Source of the DNA: Puniceicoccaceae bacterium
Lineage (GTDB): Bacteria > Verrucomicrobiota > Verrucomicrobiia > Opitutales > Coraliomargaritaceae
Length of the DNA: 64,000 nucleotides
Reading direction: 5' to 3'
Assembly (NCBI GenBank): GCA_018402305.1
Contig: JAGYJE010000001.1
Span: 1 to 64,000 of the forward strand
Translations under genes and position numbers: made by a program
The notes under the pieces: generated by a model
Told to the model about the DNA's origin: nothing
What the model saw: the letters and a program-made list of their open reading frames with translations, nothing else
The model's database searches: none
In this document: positions 3,398 through 53,311 of the stretch, in pieces
Numbering within the stretch: the first letter of the stretch is position 1
Layout of the letters: every line of letters starts with the position of its first letter

Positions 3398-4564
3398 TTA
3401 GACGTAGAAGTTGTCCTTTGCCTTAAGCTCGCGGACACCGGGGTGTTTTTCCAGCTCTTCCACTACCAAGTCGACGCCTAATCCAGGGCGATCGGATAGA
3501 TGGAGGTATCCATCGCGAACGTCAAGCGGGGAAGAAATGCAAGCGTCGCGCCAAGGCACATCATTGAACATGAACTCACAGCGAAAGAAATTCGGAACTG
3601 AAGCACAGACATGCGCACTGGCGAGCGTGCTTAGAGGGCCATTCGGATTGTGGGGAGCAAGCAGCACACCGTAGATTTCGGCCATCGTTGCAATACGCTT
3701 CATTTCGCTGGGTCCACCACAGCGGGTAATGTCCGGCATGATCATATCGCAAATGTGCTTCTCCAAAATCGGCCGGAAGCCGTGTCGTGTGTAATGGCGC
3801 TCCCCGACACAAATCGGGACGTTTGAAGGCAGACGATCGCGAAGTGCCTTAAGTGTATCAGCACTCTCAGGCCCAGCGGGTTCTTCATACCAAGTGATTC
3901 CGAGGGGTGCCAGGCGCTCAGCCATTTTCACCGCGATCTCGAAATTCAGCATCGCGTGGGTCTCTATCATCATGTCGAAGTCCGGCCCCACCGCTTCACG
4001 GACGGCTTTAGTGATCTCGTAAGCATGATCTTGCTCTGCTGGGGACAGTGTTAGATCCGTGTGAAGATCTTCACCGTATAAATAGTTTGTGTGCGCGAAT
4101 GGATCAAACTTCAGGCCAGTAAAGCCGAGCTCTTTAACCCGTTTGGCCTGTCTCGCATAATCCCCGCCGCAGTGATCCCCGCCGGTAAACCAATAGTTTG
4201 CATACAGCCGCACACTTTTTCGAAAGGCTCCGCCCAGGAGTTCGTAACAAGGCACACCCAGCACCTTTCCCTTTAAGTCCAACAGCGCCATATCCAGCCC
4301 GCTGATCGCACACATTGAGGCTCCATAGGGGCCGATCCAATTCAGGTCGCGATAAAGCTTCTGCCAAATGAAATCGATGCGCATCGGATCGAGGCCGATC
4401 ACACGTTCACCGACATGTCGTGCCGCCGCCTCAATGATTGGACTGCCAGGCCAGTTGGTGGCTTCACCAACGCCCGTGTGTCCCGTATCCGTGAAGACTT
4501 TAATCATCGTCCAGTTATATTTCACGCCCTCGACGAGCCAGACTTTTACTTTATCAATTTTCAT
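3398..4564 (-). CDS. Mandelate racemase/muconate lactonizing enzyme family protein, probable sugar-acid dehydratase
   Basis: A 388-residue enolase-superfamily enzyme. The N-terminal capping domain is followed by the barrel, with a Lys in LKFDPF (Lys152), metal ligands in IETHAML (Glu201, with His203 two residues on as in D-x-H sugar-acid dehydratases), YEEP (Glu227/228) and VGERH (Glu255), and the general base His305 in APHNPNGP. This arrangement fits galactonate/rhamnonate-type acid-sugar dehydratases that give 2-keto-3-deoxy acids. The neighbours (SDR downstream, RraA-like aldolase upstream, divergent IclR regulator) support a sugar-acid pathway. Asp is replaced by Glu at the first ligand position, so specificity is uncertain. 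Confidence 0.9.
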   Translation of the reverse strand: MKIDKVKVWLVEGVKYNWTMIKVFTDTGHTGVGEATNWPGSPIIEAAARHVGERVIGLDPMRIDFIWQKLYRDLNWIGPYGASMCAISGLDMALLDLKGKVLGVPCYELLGGAFRKSVRLYANYWFTGGDHCGGDYARQAKRVKELGFTGLKFDPFAHTNYLYGEDLHTDLTLSPAEQDHAYEITKAVREAVGPDFDMMIETHAMLNFEIAVKMAERLAPLGITWYEEPAGPESADTLKALRDRLPSNVPICVGERHYTRHGFRPILEKHICDMIMPDITRCGGPSEMKRIATMAEIYGVLLAPHNPNGPLSTLASAHVCASVPNFFRCEFMFNDVPWRDACISSPLDVRDGYLHLSDRPGLGVDLVVEELEKHPGVRELKAKDNFYV

Positions 4565-43984: not shown

Positions 43985-44431
43985 TTATGCTTCGAATCCC
44001 TTCCGCTCGACCAGCAGTAGATGGTCGCAGACCAGGACGACCTCGCCGTGCTGGTTGTTGACCGTCAACCGCTCGTTGACGATGCCGTGGCTGGGTCGCT
44101 TGTGGTCGTGTTTGTCCACGATCTCGATATGACTGGTGATCGTGTCCCCGATGAAGACGGGTTTGATAAATCGCAGGCGATCGTAGCCGTAGGACATGGC
44201 GCGGGGGTTGATCTCGGCGGCCGTCATGCCGACGGCAACGCTGAAGATGAGGGTGCCGTGGGCGATGCGCTGGCCAAAGGATTGGGTGGCGCACCACTCG
44301 GCATCGAAATGGTGGGGATAGAGATCGCCGGTCTGGCCACCGTGCAGCACGATGTCGGCCTCGGTGATGGTCCGTCCGGTGGTTTTTCGGCTCTCGCCGA
44401 GGGTGTAATCTTCGTAGTGACGTTCTTTCAT
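43985..44431 (-). CDS. MaoC family (R)-specific enoyl-CoA hydratase-like protein
   Basis: A 148-residue hot-dog-fold protein. The hydratase-2 signature, normally D-x-N-P-x-H, reads Asp36-Leu-Tyr-Pro-His-His41 in [13 protein letters not shown], and [19 protein letters not shown] follows. These residues suggest a catalytically competent hydratase or dehydratase acting on a CoA thioester. It is on the minus strand 17 bp behind the IclR gene, so both are probably one transcript. A second MaoC gene (48727-49248) lies in the divergent operon and shares the C-terminal [17 protein letters not shown] block. Confidence 0.9.
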
Positions 44432-44448: not shown

Positions 44449-45207
44449 TCAGAAGCCGAGGTCGGCTTGGAGTTTGCCTGCGGTTTGGCGGAGTGCCTGT
44501 TCGATGTTGGCGAGGGTCTTGGCCTTGGGGCGGCCGGGCAGGTGGGAGACGGCGAGGGTGGCCAGAACGACATCGGGGTGGCCGACGACCACGGCAAGGT
44601 CAGTCACGCCGGGGCGTAATTGACTCGGTTCCCGCAGGAGATCGCGGTCCTGGATATCCGCCAGTTCGGCCAATACTGACTTTTGCCTGGGGGCGGATAG
44701 CTCGTTCCAGAAAGTGCCTTCCAGTCTTCGCCGCAGGGCCTCGCCCCGGTAGCGGGAGAGCAAGAGCTTGCCGGAACAGGTCTCCAGCGGATCGAACTCG
44801 GCCCCGTAGTCGAAAAAGAGCCGTATGCGTTCGCCGCCCGAACGTTGGGCGATGACGGTGAGCGTGCCTCCGTCCAGCACGCAGGCGTGGCAGGACTCGC
44901 CGAGGACGGCGGCCAGCTCCCGGAGCTGCCGGTCGACGGCCGCACGGAGGCGCTCGACCGGTGGGTGATTGTGGGAGAGCCGGAAAAGTTTGAGAGAAAG
45001 CGCGTAGTGCTTGGTCTCGGGATCGCGCCGGACATAGCCCTGCTGCTCCAGGCAGGCCAGCATGCGGTAGATCTCGTTGCGGCTGCGCCCCTGCAGTTCG
45101 GCGAGTTCCACCAGCGAGAGTGGACGCTCGCTGGCCGACAAATCCTCCAGGATGCGAAGTCCTTTTTCGAGGGCCGGAACTGCGTAGCTGGTGTTTTTTG
45201 CTTGCAT
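44449..45207 (-). CDS. IclR family transcriptional regulator of the microcompartment-linked cluster
   Basis: A 252-residue IclR-type regulator with an N-terminal winged helix (residues 8-70: [43 protein letters not shown]) and an effector domain ([23 protein letters not shown], ending in a leucine-rich IclR tail). ATG 45207 is chosen because the palindrome at 45226-45238 would otherwise lie in coding sequence. It is divergent from the ten-gene plus-strand cluster and probably controls it, sensing a deoxysugar acid, as KdgR-like family members do. Confidence 0.92.
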
Positions 45208-45225
45208 CCCTCTAAGTTGAAGCAT

Positions 45226-45238
45226 GAAACAATGTTTC
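45226..45238. promoter_or_regulatory. KdgR-like IclR operator GAAACAATGTTTC
   Basis: GAAACA-A-TGTTTC is a perfect 13-bp palindrome, 19 bp upstream of the IclR start and 23 bp upstream of the first gene of the cluster (ATG 45261). The half-sites match the known KdgR-type operator pattern TGAAAC-n-GTTTCA of IclR regulators for sugar-acid degradation. Confidence 0.65.
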
Positions 45239-45260
45239 GTCAATAAACAAAAAATGTCGT

Positions 45261-46349
45261 ATGCACGCAGTCAGCTATACTCCTAAAATTCCGAAAAAGC
45301 CCTATCCTGTTTTGATCATTGGAACGGGGGGCATCGTAAAAGACGCTCATTTGCCCGCCTATCGGATGGCAGGGATCCCGGTGTGGGGCTTGTATAACCG
45401 GACGCGGGAAAAGGCCGATGCACTGGCGGCCGAATACGCGATCGACTCGGTTTTCGAAGATCTGGAAGCGGCCATCGCGGCGGCACCGGCGGCGACGATT
45501 TTCGACCTGGCTCTGCCCGCATCCCTTTTTGCCGATGCCCTGCGCAAGCTTCCGGAGGGGGCGCATGTGTTGATTCAAAAGCCGATGGGGGAAGACATCG
45601 GGCAGGCCCGTGAAATCCTCTCGGTTTGCCGGGAGCGGGGGCTTAAGGCGGCGATTAATTGTCAGTTGCGCTATGCCCCTTTCGTCGTGGCTGCAAGGCG
45701 ACTCATCGCGGACGGGGTGATTGGCGAGCTGTTGGACATGGAAATGCGGCTCAATGTCTATACGCCCTGGCATTTGTTCCCCTTCCTCGAAGGTATCCCC
45801 CGGGTGGAGATGCTGTATCACTCCGTTCACTACGTCGATTTGATCCGCTCCTTTCTCGGCGAGCCGCGCTCGGTCATGGCGCGCACGGTGGGGCATCCGG
45901 ACATGCCGAAGCTGGCCTCGGTCCGCAGCAGCCTTATTTTGGATTATGCCGATCCGGTGCGGGCGACCATCACGACCAATCACAGTCACAATTTTGGCTT
46001 CAAGCACCAGGAAAGCTATCTCAAATGGGAAGGCACCCGGGGGGCGATCCAAGCGCGTATTGGCTTGCTCATGGACTACCCAAAGGGAGTGGGGGATGTT
46101 TTCGAATACTGCGAGGGAACGGGAGAGGATGCGGAATGGAAGGCCATGGAGATCGAAGGCTCCTGGTTCCCCGAGGCCTTTATCGGGACGATGGGGGAAG
46201 TGCAGCGGCACAAGGCGGAGCTCGAGGCCGGGCGCGACCCGGCACCCATGCCCTGCGACGTCGAGGACGTCATCCGATCGATGGCCTGCCTGGAGGCGGC
46301 TTATGAGTCCGACCGCATTGGCGGCGTCCAACCTGGGGCTTTCCTATGA
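45261..46349 (+). CDS. Gfo/Idh/MocA family oxidoreductase
   Basis: A 362-residue NAD(P)-dependent sugar dehydrogenase. The N-terminal Rossmann motif is VLIIGTGGIVKDAHLPAYR (about residues 18-36), and IQKPMGEDI is the conserved E/K-K-P block that carries the catalytic lysine. A substrate-binding beta-sheet domain follows. As the first gene of the cluster, ahead of a lactonase and aldolase, it may oxidise the 6-deoxyhexose to its lactone; this is an inference. Its stop overlaps the next start by four bases (ATGA). Confidence 0.9.
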   Translation: MHAVSYTPKIPKKPYPVLIIGTGGIVKDAHLPAYRMAGIPVWGLYNRTREKADALAAEYAIDSVFEDLEAAIAAAPAATIFDLALPASLFADALRKLPEGAHVLIQKPMGEDIGQAREILSVCRERGLKAAINCQLRYAPFVVAARRLIADGVIGELLDMEMRLNVYTPWHLFPFLEGIPRVEMLYHSVHYVDLIRSFLGEPRSVMARTVGHPDMPKLASVRSSLILDYADPVRATITTNHSHNFGFKHQESYLKWEGTRGAIQARIGLLMDYPKGVGDVFEYCEGTGEDAEWKAMEIEGSWFPEAFIGTMGEVQRHKAELEAGRDPAPMPCDVEDVIRSMACLEAAYESDRIGGVQPGAFL

Positions 46350-47527
46350 TTGAACTCAAAGGTATCGCCTGGAACCACATGCGCGGCTTTGTCTCGGTGG
46401 TCGCCACCGCCCAACGCTACGAGGAACTGAACCCGGAGGTGCGCATCACCTGGGAGAAACGCTCCTTGCAGGCCTTTGCGGATGCCTCCATGGAGCAGCT
46501 AGCGGCGGACTACGACCTGATCGTGATGGACCATCCGCACACCGCTCTGGCGGCGGAGACGGGGGTCCTGCTCCCGCTCGACGAATACCTGCCGGCGGCT
46601 TTTCTGGCCGATCAGGCGGCGCATTCGGTGGGGCGGTCTCATGCCAGTTACAGTCATCTCGATCACCAGTGGACACTGGCGACCGACGCGGCCGCGCCCA
46701 TCGCGACCTGGCGGCCCGATTTGATGGCCGAGCGCGGTTTTGATCTGCCACAAACCTGGGAGGACGTAATGGCACTGGCCGAAACCGGACAGGTCGCGGT
46801 CTCGCTCTTTCCGGTCGATGTCCTCATGCACGTCTATATGTTTTGTGATGCGCTGGGCACGCCTGCTTTCGCGGAGTCTGGTCAACTGGCTCCGGAGAAC
46901 TCAATTGTCACCGCGCTGGAGGCGCTGCGGGCACTCGGGCGGCTCTGCGGCCCGGCCTCGTTCGAGCGGAATCCGATCCGCACGGCGGAGCATATGACGC
47001 AGACCGATGAGGCGGCCTACTGTCCCTTTGCCTATGGTTATTCCAATTACTCACGTCCGGGCTATGCGCGCAAGGTCTTGAAAGCCGGAGGGCTGGTTCG
47101 CTATAACGGTCGACAGCTGCGCTCCACACTCGGCGGGGCGGGGCTGGCCGTTTCCTCCAAAACGAAGCATCCCGACCTCGGCGCCGATTACGCGCGCTTC
47201 AGCGCTTTGCCGGAGACGCAGAAAGGTATCTATTTCGAAGCGGGCGGGCAACCCGGTCACCGGTCGGCCTGGACGGACGAGGCGGTCAATGCAGCCTGCA
47301 ACGACTTTTTCCGCGATACCCTGAGTACGCTCGACGAGGCCATCGTGCGTCCCCCCTATGCAGGCTACGTCTGGTTTCAGGATACGGCCTCCCCGGTGGC
47401 GCACGCCGCCGTGAGGGGCGACCTGGACTGCGCCGAGGCGGCGGATCAGCTGAACGAGTTGTGCCGGCAGAGCCGAAGGACACATGAACATGAAACATCC
47501 AAGGCCCGCAAACCACGCTCCGTTTAA
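46346..47527 (+). CDS. ABC-type solute-binding-like protein without a signal peptide
   Basis: A 393-residue protein of the extracellular-solute-binding family 1 type. The features are LVSVVATAQRYEELNPEVRITWEKRS near the start, ADYDLIVMDHPHTALA, PLDEYLPAAFLADQ and the later YAYGYSNYSRPGYARK and GLAVSSKTKHPDLGADYARF. The first residues (MIELKGIAWNHMRG) lack any leader, and no transporter genes are adjacent. Either a true start upstream was lost, or the protein works in the cytoplasm, for example as a sensor or carrier of a sugar-acid. It overlaps the upstream stop by four bases. Confidence 0.8.
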   Translation: MIELKGIAWNHMRGFVSVVATAQRYEELNPEVRITWEKRSLQAFADASMEQLAADYDLIVMDHPHTALAAETGVLLPLDEYLPAAFLADQAAHSVGRSHASYSHLDHQWTLATDAAAPIATWRPDLMAERGFDLPQTWEDVMALAETGQVAVSLFPVDVLMHVYMFCDALGTPAFAESGQLAPENSIVTALEALRALGRLCGPASFERNPIRTAEHMTQTDEAAYCPFAYGYSNYSRPGYARKVLKAGGLVRYNGRQLRSTLGGAGLAVSSKTKHPDLGADYARFSALPETQKGIYFEAGGQPGHRSAWTDEAVNAACNDFFRDTLSTLDEAIVRPPYAGYVWFQDTASPVAHAAVRGDLDCAEAADQLNELCRQSRRTHEHETSKARKPRSV

Positions 47528-47547: not shown

Positions 47548-48708
47548 ATGTTTAATATTCCAAGCTCACGCCCTCTGGCCGACCTCGTCGTCCTGGATTT
47601 TTCCCAATTTTTGGCCGGCCCCGCCGCTGCCATGCGCCTGGCCGATCTCGGTGCCCGGGTGATCAAGATTGAGCGGCCAAAGGGGGGCGATATCTGCCGC
47701 CAGCTTTATATCTCCAATCTCGGGGTGGAGGGCGACAGCACGCTTTTTCATTCCATCAACCGGAACAAGGAAGGCTTCGCGGCTGATCTCAAGAACCCCG
47801 ATGACCTGAAAGCCGTGCGTCAACTCATCGCGAAGGCGGATGTCCTCATTGAGAACTTTCGCCCGGGCGTGATGGAGAAACTCGGGCTTGATTTTGAAGC
47901 GGTCCATACGCTCAACCCCCGCCTGGTTTACGGCAGCGTCACCGGCTACGGTCGGAGCGGCCCCTGGAAGGGAAAGCCGGGGCAGGATCTACTCGCCCAG
48001 TCCATGTCGGGACTCTGCTGGTTGAGCGGCGACGGCGACGGCGCGCCCGTGGCGATGGGGCTGGCCGTGGCCGACCTGACCGCGAGCGCCCACCTCGTGG
48101 AAGGGATTCTCGCCTGTCTGGTGCGCCGGGGTGTCACTGGCGAAGGCGGGCGGGTCGAAGTCAGCCTGATGGAGTCGATCCTCGATTTGCAATTCGAGGT
48201 TATCACCACCCACCTGAACGACGGCGGGCAGGAACCTAAGCGTAGTTCGGAGGGCAATGCCCATGCCTATCTTGGCGCGCCTTATGGGATCTATCCGACG
48301 GCCGACGGCTACCTGGCATTGGCGATGGGCGCGGTCCCGATGCTCGGCGAACTGCTCGGCTGTCCGGCTCTACTGGAATACTCCGATCCGAAAAGCTGGT
48401 TCACCCAACGCGACACGATCAAGCGGATTTTGCAAGACCACTTGGCTGGACAAGGCACGGCGCATTGGCTCGGTATCCTCGAGCCCGCGGATATCTGGTG
48501 TGCGGAAGTCCTCTCCTGGGAAAAACTGCGGCAGACCGAAGGCTACCGCGCCCTCGACATGGAGCAGACCATCCGTTGCCCCGGCGGCACGCCGATGCCC
48601 ACGCTCCGCTGCCCCATCCGCATCGATGGAACGATCTATAAATCTGAAAAAGGCGCGCCGGCCATCGGACAGGACAACGATGTGATCCGTCAAGCCTTTG
48701 GACTTTAA
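47548..48708 (+). CDS. CaiB/BaiF family CoA-transferase
   Basis: A 386-residue class III CoA-transferase. The N-terminal [35 protein letters not shown]-type signature is complete, and the catalytic Asp is Asp176 in [15 protein letters not shown]. This family moves CoA between carboxylic acids through an Asp-CoA mixed anhydride. With two MaoC proteins in the cluster it would form and process an acyl-CoA, possibly of a hydroxy-acid such as lactate or a citramalate/mesaconate-like acid; the substrate is not determinable. Confidence 0.9.
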
Positions 48709-48726
48709 AGCGAAGCATTGAAAATT

Positions 48727-49248
48727 ATGAAAAATCCCAACCCTGACTTTGAAAAGCATAAGGAAATTCCGATTTGGAATGCGGAAGACTGGTATTACGA
48801 GGACATCGAGATCGGTCGCCGCATCCGCTCGATCCGGCGGACTTTGAGCGAGGGTGAGAGCATGCAATTCAATGCCCTCGTTCTGGACATGCATCCTTAT
48901 GTAGCCGACGAGCCCTTTGCTCGCGATGAGGGTCTGTTTGGCAAGCGGCTGATTGCCGGGGCGATGGTCTTCAGCGTCGGACTTGGGCTGGTGGCGACTA
49001 ATTGCCTGAACGCCTTCAGTTACGGCTACGACAAGCTTCGCTTCATCAAGCCCGTCTTTATTGGTGACACCATTTACACGATTAAAACGGATCTGGACAA
49101 AAGCCCAAAATACCCAGAGATGGGGCTTTACCGTGCGTCCTATGAAGTCTTCAAGGGGGACGGTGAATTGGTGCTTTATTGTGAGCACCTACAGACTGTA
49201 AAGTATCGGGATCCGTCCGCCTGCGGAGCGCCTCCGAAGAAGGACTGA
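48727..49248 (+). CDS. MaoC family protein with a degenerate hydratase motif
   Basis: A 173-residue hot-dog-fold protein similar to the MaoC protein at 43985, sharing [22 protein letters not shown]. The hydratase-2 signature is altered: Asp54-Met-His-Pro-Tyr-Val59 instead of D-x-N-P-x-H, and RLIAG instead of RIAHG. A different catalytic arrangement or a structural partner for the first MaoC is possible. ATG 48727 is used; a TTG three codons earlier is in frame. It starts 18 bp after the CoA-transferase stop. Confidence 0.88.
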
Positions 49249-49270: not shown

Positions 49271-50326
49271 ATGCCCCCCAACCCTATTTTTGGAGTTTTC
49301 TTACACGCCATCGGCGCGACCTCGGCCGCCTTTTGCTACACGCCTCAAAAAGGTGCGCGCAGTTGGTCCTGGCAGACTTTCTGGCTGGCTCAGGCTTCCG
49401 TTTGCTGGCTTGCGCTGCTGCTCCTCGTGGCCTGGTTGACCATACCACAGCTCGGCACGGTGCTGGCGGAGGCACCCCGCACGGCGATGGTCAACGCCTT
49501 TTTGCTCGGTATGCTCTACGGGGTGGGCGGTACCGCCTTCGGGCTGGCAATCAAGTATCTTGGATTTTCGCTGACCTATGCGGTGGCTATCGGCATCTCC
49601 TGTGTCCTCGGCACACTGCTCCCGCCTATGATTTCGGGACAGTTGACGGAGGTTTTCGGGCGCACTGGATCCGGATGGGTCTTAGCCGGCATTGGGATCG
49701 GCACCGTGGGGATCATTTTTTCCGGTTTGGCCGGGCGCCTCAAGGAACTCGATCTGGGTGAAAGCGGCGGCAGTTTCAATTTGGCCAAGGGACTGCCACT
49801 GTGCATTCTCGCGGGGGTGCTTTCTGCGGTTTACGGCTTTTCTCTCGCCGCCGGGCAGCCTATCGCCGACACCGCTGCGAAATACGGTGCGGGTTACTTC
49901 GAGGGCAACGTCATTTACATTTTTTCCAACACAGGTGCCTTCCTGACCACCGCGCTCTATTGCGGCTGGCTGCACCTGCGGCACAAAACCATGGGCGAGT
50001 ATTTTGAATTGCCGGCCGGCATGCACCGCGCCCGCCTGCCGCTTAATTTCGGACTGGCCTTGCTCACCGGCTGCCTTTGGTACGGGCAGTTCTTTTTTTA
50101 TGGTCTCGGCCACGTGCGGATGGGTGACTATAAATTTTCCAGCTGGGGCATCCACATGATTATGTTGGTACTCTTTAGCGCCTGCGTCGGCCTGATCTTC
50201 CGCGAATGGAAGGGCTGCCGAAGCCGCACCTGGACGAGTCTGGCCGCCGCGCTGCTGATTCTCGTCGCCGCCGTTCTGGCTCTGGCCTATGGCAGTTACA
50301 TCGGCGAATCCGCGTCAGGGCACTGA
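49271..50326 (+). CDS. L-rhamnose/proton symporter RhaT-like membrane protein
   Basis: A 351-residue membrane protein with about ten hydrophobic helices, matching the RhaT family in length and in motifs such as FLLGMLYGVGGTAFGLAIKYLG and SLTYAVAIGISCVLGTLLPP. It would import a 6-deoxyhexose (rhamnose, or fucose) with protons. It lies 22 bp behind the second MaoC gene. Its presence next to a rhamnose mutarotase is the main evidence for the type of sugar used by the cluster. Confidence 0.88.
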   Translation: MPPNPIFGVFLHAIGATSAAFCYTPQKGARSWSWQTFWLAQASVCWLALLLLVAWLTIPQLGTVLAEAPRTAMVNAFLLGMLYGVGGTAFGLAIKYLGFSLTYAVAIGISCVLGTLLPPMISGQLTEVFGRTGSGWVLAGIGIGTVGIIFSGLAGRLKELDLGESGGSFNLAKGLPLCILAGVLSAVYGFSLAAGQPIADTAAKYGAGYFEGNVIYIFSNTGAFLTTALYCGWLHLRHKTMGEYFELPAGMHRARLPLNFGLALLTGCLWYGQFFFYGLGHVRMGDYKFSSWGIHMIMLVLFSACVGLIFREWKGCRSRTWTSLAAALLILVAAVLALAYGSYIGESASGH

Positions 50327-50412: not shown

Positions 50413-50751
50413 ATGAAACGATATGGAAGCATCATCGGCCTACGGGCCGGGAAAATAGACGAATACAAAAAGCTGCATGCTGCCGTTTGGCCGGACGTGC
50501 TGGAACAGATCCGGAACTCGAATATTCGTAATTATTCGATCTTCCTGCGCCAGCTGCCCGATGGGAAATACTACCTGTTCAGCTATTTTGAATACATCGG
50601 TGAGGACTTCGGGGCCGACATGGCAGCGATGGCCGAGGATCCGCGCACCCAGGAGTGGTGGGCGGTTTGTAAACCCTGTCAGGAGCCCCTGGTGAATCGC
50701 GCCGAAGGTGAATGGTGGAGTGATATGGAAGAAGTCTTCCATGTCGACTGA
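50413..50751 (+). CDS. rhaM: L-rhamnose mutarotase
   Basis: A 112-residue protein of the L-rhamnose mutarotase family (DUF718/RhaM). Tyr18 and His22 in DEYKKLHAAVWPDV occupy the positions of the catalytic Tyr/His of the E. coli enzyme, and the C-terminal PCQEPLVNRAEGEWWSDMEEVF with its conserved Trp pair is present. It converts alpha- and beta-L-rhamnopyranose. It lies between the RhaT-like symporter and the aldolase, so the imported sugar is probably anomerised before oxidation. Confidence 0.93.
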   Translation: MKRYGSIIGLRAGKIDEYKKLHAAVWPDVLEQIRNSNIRNYSIFLRQLPDGKYYLFSYFEYIGEDFGADMAAMAEDPRTQEWWAVCKPCQEPLVNRAEGEWWSDMEEVFHVD

Positions 50752-50788: not shown

Positions 50789-51802
50789 GTGAATACACTC
50801 AAAGGCATTTTTGTTCCCAATATTGTTCCTTATACGCAAGAGGGCCGCATCAACGAGGATGAGTTGCGACGCATCATCCAGTGGCTGGGCCAGAAGGGGG
50901 TGACCGGATTTTATCCCAATGGCAGTATGGGCGAGTTTATTCGACTCTCCTATGAAGAGCGCAAGCAGGTAGTGCGGATCGTCTCCGAGGAAGCCGGGGG
51001 ACGTCCGATCCTGGCCGGCGCGGCGGAACCGAATGTCGACCTGGTTCTGGAAATGTGCGCCTACTGCGCCGATCTCGGTTGCCGGGCGGTTTCGATCACC
51101 GGCCCGTATTACTACAAGTTGACCCAGGAGAGTATCGAGCAGTACTTCCGCGACATCGCGGCCCAGTCGCCGATTGACATCGTGGTCTATAACATTCCGG
51201 CCTTCGCCAATGAGATCAGCGTGCCGGTGCTCAAGCGCCTGGCGCTGGATTGTCCGCGGATTATCGGGACGAAGGATACCTCCCGCGACATGCCCCGCTA
51301 CCAGCAGGTCTTGCACGAAATCAAAAGCCAGCGGCCGGACTTTTCCGTCCTCATCGGATGGGAGGAGCTGCTCTGTCCGGCACTTTTCATGGGCGGCGAT
51401 GGCGGCACGCTTTCCAGTGCCGGGGTGGTCCCGGAGGTCATCATGAAAATTTACGACAGCGCCCGCGCGGGGGATTGGGCGGCCTCCAAGCAGGCGCAAT
51501 TCAAATTGCTCGATCTATTCTCGCTCATGGTCAACGCCCCGAATTTTCCCGAGGGTTTTCGTCTGGGCTACCAGCTGCGCGGCTTTGAAACGGGCCGGGC
51601 ACGCTTTCCGCTCGCCCCCGTCGAAGTCGAGCGAATGGGGGAGATTCGCGGGCGCATGGCCTGTGTGCTGGCCGAATGCGGCTTTCCGGAAGCGGCGGCG
51701 GCCTGCCGCGCCGCCACCGCCACCGCAGCGACTGGCGACCAAGACAATCTTTCGCGGATCGACATCGAGTCCATCGTCCGTGATGTCATGCGCTCCTTTT
51801 AG
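50789..51802 (+). CDS. DHDPS-family aldolase with C-terminal microcompartment-targeting-like helix
   Basis: A 337-residue class I aldolase of the dihydrodipicolinate synthase/NanA family. Tyr134 in VVYNIP and the Schiff-base Lys162 in GTKDTS are in place, as is the pyruvate-binding Gly-Ser region YPNGSMGEF. The core ends about residue 300. Then come an Ala/Thr-rich linker (about 303-318) and an amphipathic tail DNLSRIDIESIVRDVMRSF. Such a linker-plus-helix resembles encapsulation peptides of microcompartment cargo, and the next gene, 15 bp on, encodes a shell protein. A plausible reaction is cleavage of 2-keto-3-deoxy-rhamnonate/fuconate to pyruvate and lactaldehyde. The start is GTG 50789. 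Confidence 0.85.
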   Translation: MNTLKGIFVPNIVPYTQEGRINEDELRRIIQWLGQKGVTGFYPNGSMGEFIRLSYEERKQVVRIVSEEAGGRPILAGAAEPNVDLVLEMCAYCADLGCRAVSITGPYYYKLTQESIEQYFRDIAAQSPIDIVVYNIPAFANEISVPVLKRLALDCPRIIGTKDTSRDMPRYQQVLHEIKSQRPDFSVLIGWEELLCPALFMGGDGGTLSSAGVVPEVIMKIYDSARAGDWAASKQAQFKLLDLFSLMVNAPNFPEGFRLGYQLRGFETGRARFPLAPVEVERMGEIRGRMACVLAECGFPEAAAACRAATATAATGDQDNLSRIDIESIVRDVMRSF

Positions 51803-51817
51803 TATTATCCTTCGGTC

Positions 51818-52456
51818 ATGTCCCGCCCTCCCTATCCCTGTCTCGGTTTCGTGGAAACGCAGTTCTTCAGCGTCACCGCAGTGGTGGCCGAGGCGATGAC
51901 CAAAGCTGCCGATGTGAAACTACTGGGACTGGAGCCGAACGGAAGCGAGGGAGTTTTAATTCGCATCGGCGGGCAGGATCCGGCCGCCGTTGGTCTGGCT
52001 CTGGAGCGGGCGGAAGCCCTGGCGACGGAGCTCGGCAGCCGCGTCGTCAGCCATGTCATGGCCGCTCCGTCCCCTGAAATTCATTCTTTGAACACCGGTC
52101 CGCTCGTGATCAACCCGCTCTACGGAGGACGGGAGGAATTCCAGCCGGGCGATTTTCCTGATAAAAAGCAATCCACTATGAACACCCAGAACCTAGCCAT
52201 CGGCATCCTCGAAACCCAGGGCCTCACCGCCAGTCTCGCCGCCAGCGACACCATGTTTAAGGCGGCGGACGTCCGCCTCGTCGGCAAAGAGAAAATCGGC
52301 GCGGCCTACGTCACCATCATCATCCGGGGCAATGTCTCCGCCGTCAAAGCCGCCATCGAAGCCGGCGCGGAGGCCGCCGCCCCGTTTGGCAAGGTCATCG
52401 CCGCCCACGTCATCGCCCGTCCGCACGAAGATCTCAAAGCCTTGCTCCCAAACTGA
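51818..52456 (+). CDS. Tandem BMC-domain microcompartment shell protein
   Basis: A 212-residue protein with two BMC domains. Domain 1 (residues 8-82) starts CLGFVETQFFSVTAVVAEAM and contains KAADVKLLGLEP; domain 2 (126-206) starts AIGILETQGLTASLAASDTM and contains KAADVRLVGKEK. A Pro/Gly-rich linker (about 86-120) joins them. Tandem BMC proteins form pseudohexameric trimers in the shell, often with a pore. Domain 1 is clearly more diverged from the BMC-H consensus than domain 2. No second shell gene, no pentamer (EutN/CcmL type) and no PduP-like aldehyde dehydrogenase is in the window. It lies 15 bp behind the aldolase gene and 15 bp ahead of the lactonase gene. Confidence 0.93.
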   Translation: MSRPPYPCLGFVETQFFSVTAVVAEAMTKAADVKLLGLEPNGSEGVLIRIGGQDPAAVGLALERAEALATELGSRVVSHVMAAPSPEIHSLNTGPLVINPLYGGREEFQPGDFPDKKQSTMNTQNLAIGILETQGLTASLAASDTMFKAADVRLVGKEKIGAAYVTIIIRGNVSAVKAAIEAGAEAAAPFGKVIAAHVIARPHEDLKALLPN

Positions 52457-52471
52457 ATACCCTAAAAGCGT

Positions 52472-53311
52472 ATGAAAAAAATCGATACCCATCTGCATCT
52501 GCTCTATCCGGACCGTGTATCCTACCCCTGGGTGGATGCCGTCCCGCCTCTGAAGGGCAACTTTCAATTGGAGGATTACAAGAAAGCGTCCGTGGACTGC
52601 GGGATCACCGGTGCTGTCTTTATGGAAGTCGACGTGGCGCCCGGGCAAATGGGTGAAGAAGCCCAATGGGTGCAAGAACTGGCCAACGCGGAGGGCAGCG
52701 GGATACTGGGCATCATCGCGGCGGCGCGTCCGGAAGCCGACGATTTTGAGGCCCGACTGGACGCCGTATCCGTGCCTTTGCTCCGAGGGGTGCGCCGGGT
52801 CTTGCACACGCAAGCGGATGCACTCTCGCAGAGCAGTCGATTCCGGGCGAACTTAAGGCGTCTGCCAGGGCGGGGTTTGAGCTTTGATCTCTGCGTGTTG
52901 GCCCGGCAGTTGCCCCTGGCCATCGAACTCGTCGATGCCTGTCCGGAAGTCACTTTCATCCTCGACCACTGCGGCGTGCCCGACATCGCGGGCGGCGCTT
53001 TTGAAAGCTGGTCGAACTCGATCGGTCACCTCGCCGGGCGGGACAACGTGCTCTGCAAAATTTCCGGTCTGCCCACCTACTGTGCGCCCGGAGAGACCGG
53101 AACCGAAGTCCTGCGCCCCTGGATCGAGCGTGTGATCCAGTGTTTCGGTTGGGACCGTGTGGTCTGGGGCGGCGACTGGCCGGTCTGCACCCTCAACGGC
53201 AGCTTGAAAGGCTGGGTGGAGGCACTCGATGCCCTTCTGGCTGAGGAAAGTGAGGCACACCGGGCAGCTCTGTATTCCGACAATACCCGTCGGGTGTATG
53301 GCTTGGGGTGA
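52472..53311 (+). CDS. Amidohydrolase_2/COG3618 family lactonase-like protein
   Basis: A 279-residue amidohydrolase-2 barrel protein. The motifs are DTHLHLLYP (metal-binding HxH), ARQLPLAIELVDACPEVTFILDHCGVPD (conserved HCG) and GWDRVVWGGDWPVC, with the catalytic Asp of COG3618 lactonases. Known members hydrolyse L-fuconolactone or L-rhamnono-lactone. It is the last gene of the cluster and would open the lactone made by the dehydrogenase. The dehydratase that should follow is not in the cluster; the enolase-superfamily protein at 3398 is a possible, unproven candidate. Confidence 0.9.
   Translation: MKKIDTHLHLLYPDRVSYPWVDAVPPLKGNFQLEDYKKASVDCGITGAVFMEVDVAPGQMGEEAQWVQELANAEGSGILGIIAAARPEADDFEARLDAVSVPLLRGVRRVLHTQADALSQSSRFRANLRRLPGRGLSFDLCVLARQLPLAIELVDACPEVTFILDHCGVPDIAGGAFESWSNSIGHLAGRDNVLCKISGLPTYCAPGETGTEVLRPWIERVIQCFGWDRVVWGGDWPVCTLNGSLKGWVEALDALLAEESEAHRAALYSDNTRRVYGLG

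Follow-up and report, generated by a model that had tools for sequence, protein, structure and literature searches.

Why does a gene for a tandem BMC shell protein directly follow the gene of a DHDPS-type aldolase in a rhamnose cluster? This question is raised by the window analyzed here, i.e. the whole stretch of 64,000 nucleotides that forms the first 64 kb of contig C1 of a Puniceicoccaceae bacterium assembly (76 contigs, 90% complete). The two genes and the two parts of the aldolase tail are as follows:

50789-51802, forward strand: class I aldolase of the DHDPS/NAL superfamily, predicted 2-keto-3-deoxy-L-rhamnonate (L-KDR) aldolase (PF00701, 3.5e-53; K162, Y134 and GSxGE invariant; fold matches to YagE, DHDPS and KDG aldolase)
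51713-51763, forward strand: disordered linker of the aldolase, residues 309-325 (pLDDT < 50 at 309-323; variable in length and sequence)
51764-51799, forward strand: C-terminal amphipathic helix, predicted encapsulation peptide IESIVRDVMRSF, residues 326-337 (helix 326-336 in the model; match to the PVM encapsulation-peptide profile above 277 of 277 control C-termini)
51818-52456, forward strand: tandem BMC shell protein (BMC-T) with canonical BMC domains at 51842-52066 and 52196-52423 (two PF00936 domains; model; best fold match to the engineered tandem BMC-H 6ner)

The aldolase ORF has a GTG start and encodes 337 aa, of which residues 4-284 match PF00701. Its AlphaFold2 model, based on an alignment of 25 homologues, has a confident barrel up to about residue 305, for which Foldseek gives a match to YagE (E 2.6e-24). 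The Schiff-base Lys162, Tyr134 and the G45-S46 and G48-E49 residues of the GSxGE motif are invariant in the 25 aligned homologue sequences. All the criteria of the DHDPS/NAL class I superfamily (PF00701, barrel fold, Schiff-base Lys, catalytic Tyr and GxxGE) are met. Since the window aldolase shares only about 26-31% identity with the nearest solved structures, its substrate cannot be read from homology. The cleavage of L-KDR or L-KDF to pyruvate and L-lactaldehyde is inferred, with support from genome context only.

Encapsulation peptides are defined as terminal amphipathic helices on a flexible linker that bind the shell and direct the enzyme to the lumen (PMC11157265). The window aldolase meets this structural criterion for BMC cargo: in the AlphaFold2 model, residues 309-323 have a pLDDT below 50 and are followed by an amphipathic helix of 11-12 residues (326-336), with a mean pLDDT of 87 over residues 331-337. 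In a class-wide survey, this linker-helix arrangement is kept in 21 of 25 close homologues (23 genomes), with a variable linker; the tail is absent from three of the others (L092 from G211, L094 from G127 and L099 from G169) and the end is altered in the last one (L091 from G138). Helix positions i, i+3, i+4, i+7, i+8 and i+11 (326, 329, 330, 333, 334 and 337) are hydrophobic in 95-100% of the 21 tailed homologues. The mean frequency of the top residue in the homologue alignment is 0.73 in core columns, 0.25 in the linker and 0.57 in the helix. Furthermore, we compared the tails with a 12-residue profile derived only from the N-terminal encapsulation peptides of PVM AldDH and the C-terminal ones of PVM FucA from the same genomes, the 12-mers being aligned by eye. 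The tail is the top-scoring 12-mer of the whole protein in 20 of the 25 homologues, and 16 homologue tails, including that of the window, outscore all 277 control C-termini. A tail shared by DHDPS proteins in general can be ruled out: the paralogous DHDPS proteins of the same genomes, as far as they are readable, have ordinary C-termini and no tail, the top profile score (5.8) being that of a paralogue from the window's own genome; a few paralogue loci read in the wrong orientation are left out of this comparison. We infer that the helix is an encapsulation peptide; its binding to the shell and the targeting to the lumen are deduced without localization data.

The aldolase stop codon ends at 51802 and the ATG of the BMC gene is at 51818, leaving a gap of 15 bp. 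The product of this second gene (212 aa) satisfies the BMC-T criterion of two fused PF00936 domains, and its model consists of two canonical, non-permuted BMC domains. Among solved structures, the engineered tandem BMC-H 6ner fits best (TM 0.72-0.85), the natural PduT being a poor match (TM 0.36-0.43). CcmO, PduT and other tandem BMC proteins likewise have two canonical BMC domains in one chain, but the match of the window protein to CcmO is far under the cut-off (119 vs 270 bits). The protein belongs to a family of its own, with a conserved NPLYGG(R/P) linker. A conserved Glu/Asp lies in the pore loop of the first domain, which is of no obvious advantage for the entry of an anionic keto acid. 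The formation of trimers in a shell facet is inferred. A contig scan with the tandem BMC protein gave a single match, in Methanoculleus, which overlaps an apparent ROK-family gene and was judged to be due to chance. Another tandem BMC protein of a distinct kind (about 190 aa) is encoded in or beside the PVM main locus in three cases, L101 (G162:C39), L110 (G058:C16) and L117 (G323:C69); the PVM main locus of the window genome has no tandem BMC protein.

These data bear out most of what the initial annotation had read from the letters alone: a class I aldolase, now supported by the invariant Lys162, Tyr134 and GSxGE motif; a linker and amphipathic helix after the aldolase core, confirmed by the AlphaFold2 model and by conservation in 21 of 25 homologues; and a two-domain BMC gene 15 bp downstream. 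It had proposed a structure prediction of the tail, which returned a helix (326-336) after an unstructured stretch (309-323), and a survey of DHDPS homologues beside BMC genes for a conserved C-terminal helix, in which the helix was kept and predicted to be helical. A tail that was missing or non-helical in close homologues near BMC genes would have refuted the proposal, and this outcome was not obtained.

Is the pair more than a chance neighborhood? The aldolase and tandem BMC genes are adjacent, with the aldolase first, in eight loci (the window, G145, G162, G147, G113, G323, G052 and G025). In G018 and G045, the tailed aldolase gene adjoins the DeoR-PduL end of the PVM locus in divergent orientation; BMC-H genes follow in G018 and the contig ends in G045. 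The tandem BMC gene is on a different contig from the aldolase in several genomes (G283, G258, G018 and G045). PF00936 genes are present in 22 of the 23 genomes carrying the aldolase, and PF03319 genes in 20. The sole one without BMC genes, G127, encodes an untailed aldolase (L094). As a class background, the BMC query matched in 66 of 188 genomes; within this sample, BMC genes were found in 13 of 14 aldolase-positive genomes vs 53 of 174 aldolase-negative ones (Fisher p = 5e-6). As the sampled genomes are related, it should be kept in mind that this value ignores shared ancestry. In the same 188 genomes, all seven carriers of the closer tandem BMC type also have the aldolase, vs 14 of 188 overall. 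A phylum-wide draw gave no further aldolase match outside the class.

The helix could also be an element of self-association or partner binding, with a shell gene located nearby for other reasons. Encapsulation peptides are known to drive condensation (PMC12339742), and the aldolases of three BMC-positive genomes lack a normal tail (untailed in G211 and G169, altered in G138). Furthermore, the tandem BMC gene is located beside genes for related membrane proteins, which cluster together, in G018 (L043:3972-6899) and G045 (L047:8998-11881). The L043 protein carries Cache, HAMP and SpoIIE phosphatase domains, and the link between a shell protein and a sensor/phosphatase is unexplained. Given this neighbor, the role of the tandem BMC protein may therefore not be tied solely to the aldolase. 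However, the match to the PVM encapsulation peptides, the repeated adjacency to the shell gene and the near-absence of the aldolase from BMC-negative genomes make this explanation improbable, and we retain that of a targeting peptide. A different BMC locus was also observed in genus g29 (L050-L052, from G005, G021 and G055): it has one BMC-domain match at the threshold used, BMC-P genes and an AldDH-like gene, the product of which starts with an encapsulation-peptide-like helix, SEQEIDLIAQRIVADL.

Which shell would the aldolase enter? Contig C67 of the same genome carries a full PVM locus: PduL, three BMC-H, AckA, three BMC-P, AldDH, a class II fuculose-phosphate-type aldolase (FucA) and MDH, with a divergent DeoR regulator and, beyond it, a rhamnulokinase (several of these C67 genes were named from sequence reading by eye). 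The tandem BMC gene, initially described as lone, is thus alone at its locus but not in its genome, since C67 harbors three BMC-H and three BMC-P genes. The search of the genome that had been suggested, for pentamer, BMC-H, PduP-like and PduL genes, recovered a full set of shell genes together with PduL and AldDH on C67, so that the outcome considered fatal to the proposal, a genome without other shell genes in which the BMC gene is isolated decay, did not materialize. An isolated decaying shell gene is ruled out by this PVM locus and by conservation in relatives. Because a complete PVM locus is located on another contig of the same genome, the shell gene of the window is considered as a satellite locus. 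According to Axen et al. 2014 (PMC4207490), satellite loci have an insufficient set of shell genes, contiguous shell genes and another full BMC locus in the genome. The window meets these criteria, with one PF00936 gene and the full locus on C67; owing to the enzyme gene alongside, the stricter label is "satellite-like". The criterion of a PVM main locus, a class II aldolase (pfam00596) beside shell genes, is not met in the window and is met on C67.

A separate, minimal assembly of the tandem BMC protein and the aldolase outside the PVM shell is conceivable, as the locus has neither its own BMC-P nor BMC-H and as the tandem protein forms its own family with the conserved linker. We give it only a slim chance, since nearly every carrier genome has a complete PVM locus or marker BMC-P genes and since, in G018 and G045, a tailed aldolase is encoded directly beside the PVM locus.

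What feeds the aldolase? The surrounding genes of the window are:

43985-44431, reverse strand: MaoC hydratase 1 with an intact GDxYPHH active-site motif (PF01575, 2.3e-24; alignment)
44449-45243, reverse strand: IclR-like regulator, divergent (also found at the start of the module in relatives; family named by eye from the sequence)
45261-46349, forward strand: GFO/IDH/MocA oxidoreductase, candidate sugar dehydrogenase (PF01408)
46346-47527, forward strand: protein with a solute-binding-protein fold, N-terminus unlike a signal peptide by eye (PF01547, PF13416)
47548-48708, forward strand: CaiB/BaiF family III CoA-transferase (PF02515, 1.6e-99)
48718-49248, forward strand: MaoC-like hydratase 2 (PF01575; 80-89% identical in relatives)
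49271-50326, forward strand: L-rhamnose/proton symporter of the RhaT family (PF06379, 7.2e-52; NCBIfam RhaT 6.6e-85, below cut-off)
50413-50751, forward strand: L-rhamnose mutarotase RhaM (PF05336, 2.6e-31)
52472-53311, forward strand: lactonase of the amidohydrolase family, L-fucono/L-rhamnono-lactonase-like (PF04909, Amidohydro_2; NF052480 L-fucono-1,5-lactonase below cut-off; adjoins the aldolase in relatives)

The RhaT, RhaM, lactonase and dehydrogenase neighbors support the assignment to a non-phosphorylative L-rhamnose module. This module is also found with the aldolase in G147, G162, G323, G283 and G262; in the last one, a single lactonase gene is apparently split over two contig ends (end of G262:C40 and start of C60, L080 and L115), and joining them would reunite module and aldolase. 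Fifteen further CaiB loci (13 genomes) lack the aldolase, and two of these genomes, G207 and G081, carry an SDR gene and a FAH-family gene, which we take to be a 4-dehydrogenase and a diketo-acid hydrolase leading to pyruvate and lactate. An SDR with a FAH hydrolase is the other known fate of 2-keto-3-deoxy methylpentonates. That the terminal enzymes are exchanged suggests one common intermediate, 2-keto-3-deoxy-L-rhamnonate. The non-phosphorylated keto-deoxy acid route proposed in the initial annotation is supported both by the RhaT, RhaM and lactonase neighbors and by these relatives with SDR and FAH in place of the aldolase.

The aldolase may nevertheless be a BMC cargo acting mainly on another 2-keto-3-deoxy sugar acid (derived from L-fuconate, or a pentonate) or on more than one of them, with several feeders that include the rhamnose genes. 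Tailed homologues are indeed encoded with a fuconate-dehydratase-like gene and a probable GH95 fucosidase in G344, with a rhamnonate-dehydratase-like gene in G258 and with a galactarate-dehydratase-family gene (UxaA/PF04295 type), an SDR and FucP in G145. Moreover, L-KDR and L-KDF differ only at C4, and the same products are expected from both. Since rhamnose-type neighbors (RhaT and/or RhaM) surround the aldolase in the window and in five relatives, we regard such a main substrate as unlikely and keep L-KDR as the predicted one.

The cluster contains candidates for all parts of the non-phosphorylative L-rhamnose pathway except the sugar-acid dehydratase, as no MR_MLE or UxaA gene is present in it. 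No PF04295 (UxaA) homologue was found in the six genomes with the CaiB-aldolase module, and tblastn detected neither MR_MLE nor UxaA homologues within the 15 further CaiB loci. Of 384 genomes, 19 have a CaiB homologue, in most cases accompanied by MaoC, GFO and SBP genes, and several copies carry rhamnose genes. MaoC1 keeps the GDxYPHH motif; in MaoC2, although it is 80-89% conserved, the second His of this motif is missing. It is possible, though we propose it only tentatively, that dehydration proceeds on a CoA thioester: CaiB would activate L-rhamnonate and the MaoC pair would remove the 3-hydroxyl in place of a dehydratase of the enolase or UxaA type, and the keto acid would then be cleaved by the encapsulated class I aldolase (IlvD/Edd are not excluded). 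From chemical reasoning, CoA activation would acidify C2 and allow the loss of the 3-hydroxyl. In some CaiB modules, the SDR and FAH enzymes are predicted to act on the same keto acid as the aldolase. This CoA route remains a hypothesis because MR_MLE genes occur elsewhere in these genomes, namely in all six that have the CaiB-aldolase module. For instance, G262 has a rhamnonate-dehydratase-like MR_MLE gene elsewhere, an MR_MLE gene adjoins the aldolase in G162 and a fuconate-dehydratase-like gene lies just upstream of the module in G323. The window itself has an MR_MLE gene at 3401-4564, closest to galactonate/mannonate dehydratases, and a window genome devoid of enolase-superfamily dehydratases is thus ruled out. 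Together with L120 and L121, it makes three similar galactonate/mannonate-dehydratase-like MR_MLE genes on three contigs of this genome.

Taken together, we consider it probable that the satellite locus provides a second lactaldehyde route into the PVM-type BMC, through an encapsulated L-KDR aldolase with its own shell protein. The fold, the catalytic residues, the structure and conservation of the tail, the gene adjacency, the presence of the PVM locus and the rhamnose-module context are what the analysis shows; the substrate, the encapsulation and the insertion of the tandem protein in the PVM shell are inferred, without biochemical or localization data. L-rhamnose would enter via RhaT and be epimerized by RhaM. 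Oxidation and delactonization would yield L-rhamnonate, the dehydration of which would give L-KDR. The aldolase would split L-KDR via a Schiff base on Lys162 into pyruvate and L-lactaldehyde. Through the C-terminal helix on its flexible linker, the enzyme may be docked to the inner side of the shell, where the aldehyde dehydrogenase, PduL and kinase from the main PVM locus would convert the toxic aldehyde to lactyl-CoA, lactyl-phosphate and lactate. The tandem BMC protein encoded beside the aldolase may be a shell facet made together with this cargo, fitting the pores or binding sites of the shell to the new branch.

A single phosphate-dependent class II aldolase serves as the defining enzyme of PVM microcompartments. 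If our proposal is true, and a tagged class I aldolase is conserved in addition, together with a shell protein of its own, one organelle takes lactaldehyde from two chemically different routes, and satellite modules are a portable means of adding BMC cargo. Some genomes classified as PVM by their main locus alone would also have a kinase-free rhamnose/fucose branch. Both the enzyme activity and the targeting peptide that the proposal predicts are specific and easily testable, and a new short native tag and a tandem shell protein would become available for engineering. The aldolase is a real, conserved and cargo-like class I enzyme paired with a tandem shell protein and most likely constitutes a second lactaldehyde-producing branch of the PVM organelle, its substrate, encapsulation and shell membership being inferences.

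The initial annotation was not aware of this aldolase type as a microcompartment cargo in a rhamnose cluster, and no report joining a DHDPS-type aldolase to BMCs was found in the searchable literature. The term "dihydrodipicolinate" is absent from the main texts of the BMC taxonomy, the BMC catalogue, the gut BMC survey and the Verrucomicrobiota methyl-pentose paper. Priority is provisional because supplements and subscription papers were outside this search.

The predicted reaction has known counterparts outside BMCs. In Route 1 of L-fucose degradation, KDF is cleaved to pyruvate and L-lactaldehyde (PMC11199699). This known cleavage of keto-deoxy methylpentonates is the reaction predicted for the window aldolase, but it has not been described as that of a BMC cargo. 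A DHDPS-family protein has been assigned in the Campylobacter jejuni fucose locus (PMC6946681). This locus (Cj0480c-Cj0490, with Cj0481/DapA) comprises a regulator, a DHDPS-family enzyme, a hydrolase, a mutarotase, an SDR and a dehydratase for a predicted non-phosphorylative fucose route, and the accessible part of the source mentions neither BMC nor tail. The G145 aldolase locus, with its galactarate-dehydratase-family gene, SDR and FucP, resembles the C. jejuni one (PMC6946681, PMC12566272).

In both the BMC taxonomy and the BMC catalogue, the class II aldolase is the PVM signature. The PVM BMC for fucose and rhamnose, with its class II fuculose-1-phosphate aldolase (pfam00596), is encoded in the same genome as the window pair, and the same lactaldehyde product is expected for both, the predicted encapsulation peptides being of the same kind. 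However, the window aldolase is of class I (PF00701), acts on a non-phosphorylated keto acid according to our prediction and belongs to a satellite locus with a tandem BMC protein, whereas no shell genes other than BMC-H and BMC-P are present in the main locus on C67. The EUT-module satellites of the BMC catalogue are the nearest conceptual precedent. The precedent of a signature enzyme encoded with its own BMC-T at a distant locus, and proposed to extend the main BMC, has a similar layout but differs in enzyme, BMC-T type and pathway.
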